Shown here: positions 4,190 through 51,620 of the stretch, one piece after another
Numbering within the stretch: position 1 is the stretch's first letter
How the letters are laid out: each line of letters begins with the position of its first letter
Assembly (NCBI RefSeq): GCF_021083185.1
Contig: NZ_JAIGQB010000002.1
Location: 310,001 to 374,000, forward strand
Length of the DNA: 64,000 bases
Source of the DNA: Nocardioides furvisabuli
GTDB taxonomy: Bacteria > Actinomycetota > Actinomycetes > Propionibacteriales > Nocardioidaceae
Direction: 5' to 3'
The notes under the pieces: model-generated
Told to the model about the DNA's origin: nothing
Seen by the model: the letters and a program-made list of their open reading frames with translations, nothing else
Database searches by the model: none
Program-made: the position numbers and the translations under genes

Positions 4190-5191
4190 TCAGTGCAGCT
4201 CGGGCTTGGTGTCGCGCGCGATGAAGGAGTTCATCATGTCGAGCGCGGTCATCCGGCCGTCGACGACCGCGTCGACGGCCTGCGCGATCGGGGCGTCGAC
4301 GCCGACGCTGTCGGCCAGCGCGAGCAGCGACTTGCAGGACTTGGCGCCCTCGGCGACCTGTCGCGTGGAGGCGTAGATCTCCTCGGTCGTCATCCCCTGG
4401 CCGAGGCGCTCGCCGAAGGTGCGGTTGCGCGAGAGCGGCGAGGAGCAGGTGGCGACGAGGTCGCCGAGGCCCGCGAGGCCCATCAGGGTGAGCGGGTTGG
4501 CGCCCTGCGCGGTGGCGAGGCGGGCGGTCTCGGCGAGCCCGCGCGTGATGACAGAGGCCGTGGTGTTGTCGCCGAAGCCGAGACCGACGGCCATGCCGAC
4601 CGCGAGGCCGACGACGTTCTTGTAGGCACCGCCGATCTCGCACCCGAGCACGTCGACGGAGGTGTAGGGCCGCCACGACGGGCCGTGCGTGATCGCCTGC
4701 AGGTGCTTGGCGCGCTCCTCGTCGACGCAGGCGACGACCGACGCGGCCGGCTCACGGCGCGCGATCTCGCGGGCAAGGTTGGGTCCGCTGATCACCGCGA
4801 TCCGGTTGGCGGACGCGTCGGTGACCTCCTGGATCACCTCGCTCATCCGCATCAGGGTCCCGAGCTCGACCCCCTTCATCAAGGACACCAGCGTCGCCTT
4901 CTCGGGCAGGATCGGCGCCCACGCGGTCAGGTTCTCCCGCAGTGACTGCGACGGGACGGTCAGCACCACGACGTCGGCGTCTGCCGCGACCTCCTCGGGG
5001 TCGGTCGATGCGCGGATCGAGGGCGGCAGCTCGATGCCGGGCAGGTAGTCGGTGTTCTCGCGGCGCTCGTTGACCGCCTCGACCACCTCGTCGCGGCGCG
5101 CCCACAGGGACACGTCGTTGCCGGCGTCGGCGAGGACCAGCGAGAAGGCGGTGCCCCACGATCCGGCACTGAACACTGCGATCTTCGTCAT
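4190..5191 (-). CDS. gpsA: NAD(P)H-dependent glycerol-3-phosphate dehydrogenase
   Basis: Reduces dihydroxyacetone phosphate to sn-glycerol-3-phosphate for phospholipid synthesis. The 333-residue protein has an N-terminal nucleotide-binding loop [10 protein letters not shown] (the first glycine of the usual GxGxxG is serine), SLMKGVE near residue 120, [11 protein letters not shown], and the catalytic segment [15 protein letters not shown] near 190, followed by the C-terminal helical domain. The ATG at 5191 overlaps the plsC stop by four bases (ATGA), so the two lipid-precursor genes are translationally coupled. Confidence 0.95.
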
Positions 5192-26664: not shown

Positions 26665-28245
26665 TCAGCGGTGGTGGCGCCTCAGCCCGAACGTCAGCCC
26701 GTCGACGAGCGCGCCCCACGACGCCTCGATGACGTTGGCGCCGACGCCGACGGTCACCCACGACGACTCGCCGTCGGTGGTCTCGATGAGCACCCGCGTG
26801 ATCGCGTCCGTGCCGTGGCCCTGGTCGAGGATGCGCACCTTGTAGTCGATCAGCTCGAACTTGGCGACCTCGGGGAAGGCCTGCCCGATGGCCTCGCGCA
26901 GGGCGGCGTCGAGCGCGTTGACCGGGCCGTTGCCCTCCCCCGTGACGACGAACCTCACGCCCTCGGCGCGCAGCTTCACCGTTGCCTCGGAGATGGCCTC
27001 GCCGTCGGTGCGGGTCTCGGTGATCACGCGCCACGACTCGACGTCGAAGTACGACGGACGCGTCCCCTCGACCTCCTCGGCGAGCAGCAGCTCGAAGGAC
27101 GCGTCGGCGGCCTCGAAGGTGTGGCCGTGCTGCTCCATCTCCTTGACGCGTGCGGTGACGCGGGTGACGAGCTCGCGGTCGTCGGAGAGGTCGTAGCCGA
27201 GCTCGCGGCCCTTCAGCTCGATCGATGCGCGACCGGCCATGTCGGAGACGAGCAGGCGCATGTCGTTGCCGACGCCGACGGGGTCCATGTGCTGGTAGAG
27301 GTTCGGGTCGACCTTGATCGCGCTGGCGTGCAGCCCCGCCTTGTGCGCGAAGGCCGACGTGCCGACGTACGGCTGGCGCGAGGCGGGCGGGACGTTGGTG
27401 ACCTCGGCGACGGCGTGGGCGATGCGGGTCGCCTCGCGCAGCAGCCCGGGGGGCAGGACGCTGCGGTCCAGCTTGAGCTCGAGGTTGGCCACGACGGTGA
27501 CGAGGTCGGCGTTGCCGGTGCGCTCGCCGTAGCCGTTGATGCAGCCCTGCACGTGCGTGGCACCGGCCGCGACCGCGGCCAGCGAGTTGGCGACCGCGCA
27601 CCCGCTGTCGTTGTGGGCGTGGATGCCCACCCGCGCACCGGTCGACTCGATGACGTCGAGCACCACGTCGGAGACCCAGTCGGGCAGCATCCCGCCGTTG
27701 GTGTCGCAGAGCGCGACCACCTCGGCGCCGGCCTCGGCGGCGGTGCGCAGCACCTCGAGGGCGTACGCCCGGTTGCCGCGGTAGCCGTCGAAGAAGTGCT
27801 CGGCGTCGAGGAAGACCGTCTGCCCCTCCTCGCGCAGGTGGGTCACGGTGTCGCGCACCATCGCGAGGTTCTCCTCGAGCGTGGTGCGCAGCGCGAGCTC
27901 GACGTGGCGGTCGTGCGACTTGGCGACCAGGGTGACGACGCCCGCGCCGCTGTCGCGGAGGGCCGCGACCAGCGGGTCGTCGGCAGCGCGTACGCCGGCA
28001 CGGCGGGTCGCGCCGAAGGCGGCGAGCCGCGCGTGGCGCAGGTCCAGCTCGGCAGCAGCGCGGCGGAAGAACTCGGTGTCCTTGGGGTTGGCGCCCGGCC
28101 AGCCGCCCTCGATGTAGCCCACGCCGAGGTCGTCGAGCTGGCGAGCGATGCCCAGCTTGTCGGCGACCGAGAGGTTGAGGCCCTCCTGCTGGGCGCCGTC
28201 GCGCAGGGTGGTGTCGTAGACGTGGAACGCGCCGTGGAGGTCCAT
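26665..28245 (-). CDS. cimA: (R)-citramalate synthase
   Basis: Condenses pyruvate and acetyl-CoA to citramalate, giving 2-oxobutyrate for isoleucine without threonine deaminase. The 526-residue protein has the DRE-TIM barrel start VYDTTLRDGAQQEGLNLS near residue 9, the metal histidines in GIHAHNDSGCAVANS near 207, NGYGERTGNADL, and a C-terminal allosteric LeuA-dimer domain. The Glu-Gly-Gly-Trp-Pro-Gly segment and overall length match CimA (TIGR00977 type) rather than 2-isopropylmalate synthase. A terminator and short leader peptide lie between its promoter region and the ATG. Confidence 0.92.
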   Translation of the reverse strand: MDLHGAFHVYDTTLRDGAQQEGLNLSVADKLGIARQLDDLGVGYIEGGWPGANPKDTEFFRRAAAELDLRHARLAAFGATRRAGVRAADDPLVAALRDSGAGVVTLVAKSHDRHVELALRTTLEENLAMVRDTVTHLREEGQTVFLDAEHFFDGYRGNRAYALEVLRTAAEAGAEVVALCDTNGGMLPDWVSDVVLDVIESTGARVGIHAHNDSGCAVANSLAAVAAGATHVQGCINGYGERTGNADLVTVVANLELKLDRSVLPPGLLREATRIAHAVAEVTNVPPASRQPYVGTSAFAHKAGLHASAIKVDPNLYQHMDPVGVGNDMRLLVSDMAGRASIELKGRELGYDLSDDRELVTRVTARVKEMEQHGHTFEAADASFELLLAEEVEGTRPSYFDVESWRVITETRTDGEAISEATVKLRAEGVRFVVTGEGNGPVNALDAALREAIGQAFPEVAKFELIDYKVRILDQGHGTDAITRVLIETTDGESSWVTVGVGANVIEASWGALVDGLTFGLRRHHR

Positions 28246-28280: not shown

Positions 28281-28312
28281 AAACAAAAAGACCTCCTGGG
28301 GTGCAGGAGGTC
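28281..28312 (-). terminator. Leader terminator (candidate attenuator) of cimA
   Basis: On the minus strand a perfect 8-bp stem (28312-28305 with 28297-28290) with a seven-base loop is followed by five U residues (28289-28285). It lies 36 bases upstream of the cimA ATG, before rather than after a gene, as expected of an attenuator. A second 9-bp hairpin (28314-28322 with 28329-28337) sits just upstream. Confidence 0.75.
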
Positions 28313-28336
28313 GGCGCGACGGGGTGTGCCGTCGCG

Positions 28337-28366
28337 CTAGGGAATGATGGTCGTGCTGGTGCTCAC
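28337..28366 (-). CDS. Candidate cimA leader peptide (MSTSTTIIP)
   Basis: GTG followed by Ser-Thr-Ser-Thr-Thr-Ile-Ile-Pro and TAG. Consecutive Thr-Thr-Ile-Ile codons fit control by isoleucine, the product that CimA feeds. The stop codon abuts the first hairpin of the leader, and the terminator follows 25 bases later. No clear ribosome-binding site precedes the GTG, which is the main weakness. Confidence 0.5.
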   Translation of the reverse strand: MSTSTTIIP

Positions 28367-51468: not shown

Positions 51469-51518
51469 GGTTCTTCTTCCGTCGTGGTTCCGTCGTGTCC
51501 CGCCGTGCCCGGCCCAAC

Positions 51519-51551
51519 AAAAAACCCCTCGGCCCGGTGGGCGACGAGGGG
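51519..51551 (-). terminator. Attenuator terminator of ilvBNC
   Basis: On the minus strand CCCCTCG (51551-51545) pairs with CGAGGGG (51531-51525), then six U residues (51524-51519). It lies between the leader peptide and the ilvB ATG, the classical attenuator position. Confidence 0.88.
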
Positions 51552-51578
51552 TGACGCGTGTGCCTGCGGCCTGGGGCC

Positions 51579-51620
51579 TCAGCTCACGCGTCGCGTGCGT
51601 ACAAGAATCTCGGTGCGCAT
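51579..51620 (-). CDS. ilvB leader peptide ([13 protein letters not shown])
   Basis: A 13-codon peptide with consecutive Ile-Leu-Val codons. The same form, starting MRT-ILV, precedes ilvB in Streptomyces and other actinobacteria. Ribosome stalling at these codons when branched-chain amino acids are scarce would favour an antiterminator over the downstream terminator. Confidence 0.85.

Follow-up and report, generated by a model that had tools for sequence, protein, structure and literature searches.

Does the region in front of cimA in Nocardioides furvisabuli hold an attenuator that responds to isoleucine, and how would such an attenuator switch? CimA feeds isoleucine synthesis, and a first-pass annotation of this DNA had marked the cimA leader as a candidate isoleucine attenuator. 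Here, we examined the leader within the window (the whole stretch of 64,000 nucleotides that was analysed) and in a wider set of genomes. The proposal gains support from the joint conservation of codons and terminator, and we consider it very likely that the cimA leader is a ribosome-mediated transcription attenuator with a predicted response to isoleucine.

Anatomy of the leader upstream of cimA

The features of this locus lie on the minus strand. The candidate regulated gene, cimA (26665 to 28245, with its ATG at 28245), is identified as a citramalate synthase gene by NCBIfam TIGR00977, which it matches at 643 bits (cut-off 450); the gene 5′ of the leader encodes a metallopeptidase (Pfam Peptidase_M43) on the same strand as cimA. 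The leader ORF (28337 to 28366) encodes the annotated nine-codon peptide MSTSTTIIP and reads, from 28366 to 28337, GTG AGC ACC AGC ACG ACC ATC ATT CCC TAG, so that its start codon is GTG and not ATG. The putative regulatory codons are the pair Ile-Ile (ATC ATT, 28343 to 28348), assigned by the conservation of isoleucine and by ATT bias. The hairpin annotated as touching the stop codon is present as well: P1 (28314 to 28337), with 9 bp, has the sequence GCGCGACGG-CACACC-CCGUCGCGC from 28337 to 28314, and its first G is the G of the UAG stop. On the basis of folding, covariation and ribosome masking, we propose P1 as sensor and antiterminator in one. A spacer of 1 nt (C) leads to hairpin T (28290 to 28312), the predicted stem of an intrinsic terminator, for which folding, a terminator scan and covariation speak; it has the sequence GACCUCCUG-CACCC-CAGGAGGUC from 28312 to 28290 and is followed by the U-tract UUUUU (28285 to 28289), seen in the sequence and in the terminator scan. 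The five U residues of the annotated terminator are confirmed, and its stem length is corrected from 8 to 9 bp.

The fold of the 121-nt leader has a z of −5.3 against 200 dinucleotide shuffles, none of which (0/200) folds as well, and a 501-nt region holds one terminator-like site compared with 0.1 expected. At gathering score, Rfam 15 reports two tRNAs only in the window, with no family match for the leader and no T-box; a permissive local search yielded five hits, all far under the gathering scores.

Conservation, codons and covariation of the leader

We found a strong cimA match in 110 of the 118 Nocardioides genomes searched and assembled a Nocardioides set of 108 cimA upstream regions, leaving out one match without its N-terminus, one gene split over two contigs and one second copy. 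The leader element is present in 103 of these 108 regions (97 by script and 6 by eye) and absent from five (L146, L157, L163, L165 and L187); two leaders, L030 and L159, look decayed. By eye, three of the regions without a leader (L146, L157 and L187) have an ATG 9 to 10 nt past a −10-like sequence, as if cimA were nearly leaderless there. The parsing script required GCGC at both P1 ends and a P1-T spacer of 0 to 3 nt, and made no demand for isoleucine; it picked the wrong 5′ arm in L010 and L017, which were dropped from later counts. In the named genome collection, the script found the element in 32 of 80 cimA loci, an additional Nocardioides and two MAGs of the Nocardioidaceae among them; the carriers also include Nonomuraea, Planotetraspora, Amycolatopsis, Lentzea, Kutzneria, Cellulomonas, Demequina and Motilibacter. 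The 48 script-negative loci include some from outside the phylum, some in which another gene immediately precedes cimA and some truncated at the end of a contig. Leader-like ORFs with isoleucine codons and hairpins before cimA, which the script missed, were seen by eye in one Acidimicrobiaceae (L100) and two Nitriliruptoria-type (L081 and L082) genomes. The 95 leaders from the genus search and the 32 others make up the 127 parsed leaders used below.

Aligning the cimA upstream regions, as the first-pass annotation had suggested, shows that the codons are conserved and that P1 and T covary. Counted from the codon at the P1 base, codon −2 is isoleucine in 127/127 leaders and codon −3 in 118/127, codons and terminator being retained jointly; codon −1 varies freely, with R, S, A, T and P among its residues. 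The Thr-Thr-Ile-Ile signal that had been proposed is therefore reduced to Ile-Ile, the threonine codons being not conserved. At the P1 base, 94/95 Nocardioides leaders but 16/32 others have the stop TAG; in the rest, the ORF enters P1, and the distance from isoleucine to P1 is kept even there.

Codon −2 is spelled ATT in 89/95 Nocardioides leaders, and at least one ATT occurs in 90/95 of them and in 30/32 others. In the coding sequence of genes found by homology, by comparison, ATT makes up 1 of 477 isoleucine codons (30 cimA genes) and 3 of 1106 (30 ilvB genes). An earlier background from genes called by high GC3 (ATT 1/478 in cimA and 3/865 in ilvB) agrees with these counts; calling genes by GC3 favours low ATT, and the codon background therefore rests on the homology-found genes. 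A similar pattern exists in 30 Nocardioides ilvB leaders, where valine is GTA in 30 and leucine CTT in 17, against 4 GTA among 1470 valine codons and 5 CTT among 1163 leucine codons in 30 ilvB genes. Because the sequences are related, we give no probability for this codon bias. Synonymous codon choice has been argued to set attenuator sensitivity (PMC1183508). ATT, a nearly unused codon, is retained at the sensing position; as AUU, it may be read by wobble and hence slowly.

In 120/127 leaders, the sequence TGnCAnnnT lies 6 to 10 nt 5′ of an in-frame start codon, at a distance of 6 nt (60 leaders), 7 nt (54), 8 nt (1) or 10 nt (5), and it is missing from 7/127. In the window, this −10-like motif, TGGCACGAT (minus strand, 28381 to 28373), ends 6 nt before the GTG; its promoter activity is presumed from the motif, and a plain sigma-70 consensus scan detected no promoter-like site at the cimA leader. 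Since the motif stands 6 nt before the GTG, a spacing consistent with leaderless transcription from a presumed start site, the cimA leader mRNA is probably leaderless. A leaderless ORF needs no ribosome-binding site, which is the likely reason for the absence of such a site remarked upon in the first-pass annotation. Leaderless mRNAs account for 17% of the transcripts described for S. lividans (PMC8079986).

Covariation was analysed in 69 non-redundant leaders of the 127. Across P1 and T, standard pairs occupy 95.5% of cells, pairs changed on both sides number 13/19 overall (6/10 in P1 and 7/9 in T), and there are 128 compensatory two-sided cells compared with 21.2 in shuffles; sliding the structure by 1 to 3 columns makes the covariation collapse. 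The four invariant P1-base pairs are invariant by selection, because the script demanded GCGC at the P1 ends. When P1 and T are placed independently, they lie 1 to 3 nt apart or share 2 nt in 125/127 leaders, and in 90 class-level matches with perfect-helix placement (see below) the spacing is −1 to +1 in 71 and different in 14, with no P1 in 5. Predicted folds of E. coli leaders, in which T was placed roughly, have 2 to 8 unpaired nt before T. Close packing of two hairpins is by itself not diagnostic, as it also exists in E. coli leaders, where overlapping pairing explains it.

Terminator pairing, ribosome position and the proposed switch

Classical attenuators have an antiterminator overlapping the terminator. 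The first-pass annotation had noticed no obvious antiterminator at this locus, and none is detectable in the class either, pairing of the T 5′ arm being at chance level. Our test took the strongest pairing that the T 5′ arm can make anywhere in the leader RNA upstream of it, P1 included, and compared it with that in shuffled upstream RNA. In 126 of the 127 leaders (one gave no T), the mean z is −0.01 and the median 0.36, and 2/126 reach 0.6 of T's own arm strength. By contrast, five E. coli K-12 attenuators stand out as a group, with z values of −4.6 (thr), −2.2 (his), −1.8 (trp), −1.75 (leu) and −1.0 (ilv), a mean of −2.3, and pairing at 0.42 to 0.92 of T's own arm strength. With the loop limit relaxed, none of the 30 Nocardioides ilvB leaders, the source genome's leuS leader and the 90 class-level leaders reaches 0.6. 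The separation of E. coli from cimA leaders came after a change of the T-placement rule: a first control with cruder arms, which located T poorly in part of the E. coli set, failed to tell the groups apart (z 0.1, −1.8, −2.8, 1.2 and −0.8), and this cruder version agreed for the cimA 5′ arms (T versus upstream RNA). For the T 3′ arm, the pairing z falls below −2 in about 10% of cimA leaders. An antiterminator overlapping T, sought with 5′ and 3′ arms by duplex energy, was rejected as a candidate, as it was not found above chance in cimA leaders. At the modest power of the test, an antiterminator sharing T seems to be truly missing, and attenuation without alternative pairing is supported by this null result and its modest positive control.

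The effect of a ribosome was modelled by masking in silico, with the edge of the footprint 12 to 15 nt from the first base of the P-site. P1 retains 9 or 8 bp when the A site holds the first isoleucine codon and 8 or 5 bp when it holds the second; at the stop, no more than 4 scattered pairs are left. T, by contrast, is predicted wherever the ribosome stands and whether or not P1 is present; the ilvB leader of the window gave an alike result. Ribosome position thus decides P1, not T, and because T forms at all positions, base pairing alone shows no switch, so that the switch rests on a proposed steric step. Higher cimA expression under starvation would require P1 to interfere with T; since P1 and T share no bases here and upstream pairing is at chance, we propose a steric block.

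According to this proposal, transcription would begin at or next to the GTG, and a ribosome would load on the 5′ end. With ample charged tRNA-Ile, the ribosome would reach the UAG and cover the P1 5′ arm, and T would fold with P1 blocked, terminating transcription before cimA. With isoleucine short, it would stall with an isoleucine codon in the A site and its leading edge near the P1 base; P1 would fold, and read-through would follow. Once folded 0 to 2 nt from T, P1 may prevent T's lowest pairs from closing in the RNA exit channel, where they could close only if the base of P1 were drawn into the channel too. Steric exclusion of T by P1 remains tentative, and we put its chance somewhat below even. 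Formation of a terminator hairpin has been reported to be prevented when the exit channel is filled by a protein (PMC6624301). Support for induction by stalling comes from the M. tuberculosis ilvB1 leader (known here by description), where changing the LVVI codons to AAAA is reported to abolish induction (PMC13236596). Against our reading stand codon substitutions in the ilvB leader of S. coelicolor, which are cited as having no effect, and the antiterminators described for Streptomyces leuS leaders (both in PMC1262725).

Of the other explanations, the strongest retains the attenuator and takes P1 as a pause or protector hairpin keeping ribosome and polymerase in step, T being disturbed by the stalled ribosome or by coupling. 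P1 and T do coexist in predicted folds, and the first hairpin of classical systems is a pause or protector hairpin (general knowledge, and PMC1183508). However, the edge of a stalled ribosome near the P1 base would be about 24 nt before T and should therefore not reach it, and the closeness of P1 to T, kept in 125/127 leaders and to within 1 nt in 71/85 class-level matches with both helices placed, is not obviously needed by a pause hairpin; we consider this explanation unlikely. A degree less probable still is a classical attenuator whose antiterminator overlaps T and was missed, being a pseudoknot, protein-assisted, long-range or too weak. The modest power of our test on single leaders leaves room for it, as do the T 3′ arm values below −2 and the antiterminators described for Streptomyces leuS (PMC1262725), yet the five E. 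coli leaders stand out as a group where 126 cimA, 30 ilvB and 90 class-level leaders do not.

Two further explanations were considered. A protein might bind the P1-T RNA and control termination, with translation of the ORF irrelevant, and a protein has indeed been proposed for the leuA LEU element (PMC1262725); but the identity of the codons tracks the downstream gene, and synonymous ATT is held against genome bias, which makes this quite improbable. We give hardly any credence to the idea that T ends another transcript, namely that of the upstream M43 protease gene, with the short ORF arising by chance. The protease does lie upstream on the same strand, with no consensus promoter found between, but a −10-like motif stands in between, as in 120/127 leaders, and the isoleucine codons are conserved in frame. 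Moreover, of 61 other loci, only 5 have an M43 homologue upstream, and in 19 the nearest gene called upstream is encoded on the opposite strand (same strand 38, none called 4; calls by base composition); on this survey, T as the protease terminator was rejected.

Related leaders and comparison with known systems

Related elements precede other branched-chain amino acid genes in actinobacteria. The covariance model R1 matches 136/197 genomes of the class (71/90 genera) and 41/149 genomes of a phylum sample (35/119 genera) that shares some class genomes. We examined 90 class-level matches, of which 30 were among the matches listed and 60 were chosen with a preference for genomes with several. 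A branched-chain gene lies downstream in 88/90 of these loci: cimA in 63, ilvB in 17, ilvA in 4, leuS in 3 and leuA in 1, with a small ORF in the other 2; the ilvA and leuS names rest on truncated-protein matches under curated cut-offs and on mutual similarity. In 28 loci of the phylum sample (five of them in the class), the downstream gene is ilvB in 17, cimA in 6, leuA in 1 and unmatched to the five queries in 4, and some of these ilvB genes are 350 to 600 nt downstream of the element.

The codons follow the gene. Among model codons 1 to 5, isoleucine is present in 63/63 cimA leaders (61 with ATT) and 4/4 ilvA leaders, leucine in 3/3 leuS leaders and in the one leuA leader, and the 17 ilvB leaders contain valine in 16, isoleucine in 14 and leucine in 14. 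Some loci were also inspected individually. The ilvA-type loci (L296, L297, L299 and L320) have threonine ammonia-lyase-like genes, come from one family of genomes and carry isoleucine at the cimA position. The elements of L262 and L278 have isoleucine codons and precede the small ORFs, that of L278 with a weak ACT-domain match (E 0.0036, under the cut-off). By eye, the four unmatched phylum loci comprise two isopropylmalate-dehydrogenase-type genes, one prephenate-dehydratase-like gene and one that was uncalled; L344, L356 and L343, with isopropylmalate-dehydrogenase-type or prephenate-dehydratase-looking genes, show Val/Ile and Val/Leu/Ile codons.

The window itself contains a second leader of the same design, before ilvB (minus strand, 51620 to 51518 as a whole). 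Its ORF (51579 to 51620) has the rare codons ATT CTT GTA, and its P1 (51592 to 51553) and T (51552 to 51524), with a spacer of 0 nt, and the U-tract complete the layout (51518 to 51592). This contiguous P1-T layout occurs in 30/30 of the Nocardioides ilvB loci that we examined, drawn from 39 matches across 38 genomes, with spacers of 0 to 3 nt allowed. The leuS gene of the same genome (L359, C32:84791-87223) has a leader encoding MHQYLLLPRPR and, by eye, the P1-T layout with a spacer of 0 nt. The ilvB leader of the window matches R1 at E 0.018, and a second model, R2, built from class matches, finds only the cimA leader at a useful E-value in the source genome; as the ilvB and leuS leaders have no significant model match, kinship within the source genome is one of layout. 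A weak R1 match at 4227 to 4297 (E 0.52) was taken as chance.

These observations raise the possibility, which we rate as less likely than not, of a class of attenuators spread across the phylum whose switching needs no alternative pairing. In it, a codon-gated hairpin abutting the terminator would exclude it sterically inside RNA polymerase, and the leader codons would be exchanged to suit the gene, with Ile in front of cimA and ilvA, Ile/Leu/Val in front of ilvB, and Leu in front of leuS and leuA. If this is true, the overlapping antiterminator would be absent by design in the class, and a hairpin between the edge of the stalled ribosome and the foot of the terminator would take its place. 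Several actinobacterial branched-chain leaders were described in 2005 as missing attenuator parts (PMC1262725), and what was missing would become a testable rule. In the same source, the genes reported to be preceded by leaders or elements are trp, trpS, cys, ilvB, leuS and leuA; T-boxes precede ileS, and other pathways show no conserved structures. PMC8079986 lists eight S. lividans leaders, of which none belongs to cimA; the word citramalate is absent from its main text. The first-pass annotation knew of no attenuator for citramalate synthase, and we likewise found no attenuator or leader for cimA in the open-licence literature searched.

The cimA leader resembles the classical trp and his attenuators in its leader ORF with in-frame end-product codons (the isoleucines at −2 and −3) and in the intrinsic terminator before the gene, with its 9 bp, UUUUU and covariation in 69 leaders. 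It differs in that it has no detectable helix using the terminator 5′ arm; the E. coli trp, his, thr, leu and ilv leaders show such upstream pairing as a group, whereas the cimA leader shows none and appears leaderless. Closer relatives may be the actinobacterial ilvB (ilvL) leaders, such as that of S. lividans (MRTRILVLGKRVG) and the LVVI uORF of M. tuberculosis ilvB1, with branched-chain codons, one or more hairpins and a U-tract terminator (PMC8079986, PMC13236596 and PMC1262725). The S. lividans ilvB leader is leaderless, as presumed for the cimA leader. Compared with these ilvB leaders, the gene here is cimA, the conserved codons are isoleucine, and the stop is often at the P1 base. By its published description, M. 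tuberculosis ilvB1 has a mutually exclusive anti-terminator and terminator, whereas the Nocardioides and class-level ilvB leaders show no upstream pairing of T.

With ilvB- and leuS-type leaders, the cimA leader shares a hairpin at the codons or the stop that is followed at once by a U-tract terminator. The leuS leader attenuators of Streptomyces have leucine codons, a hairpin and a terminator, and the source genome's leuS has the same layout by eye; however, antiterminator and terminator hairpins are described for Streptomyces leuS (PMC1262725), whereas we found no upstream pairing of T in the source genome's leuS. The LEU element is a leuA pseudoknot in which the leucine codons pair with the leuA SD (PMC1262725), and the cimA leader differs from it in having isoleucine codons and a terminator and in preceding cimA. 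For the proposed steric step, the likeness is with phage P7, where a protein plugging the RNA exit channel stops the terminator hairpin (PMC6624301): the obstacle of the phage is a protein, whereas that proposed for cimA would be an RNA hairpin of the same transcript.
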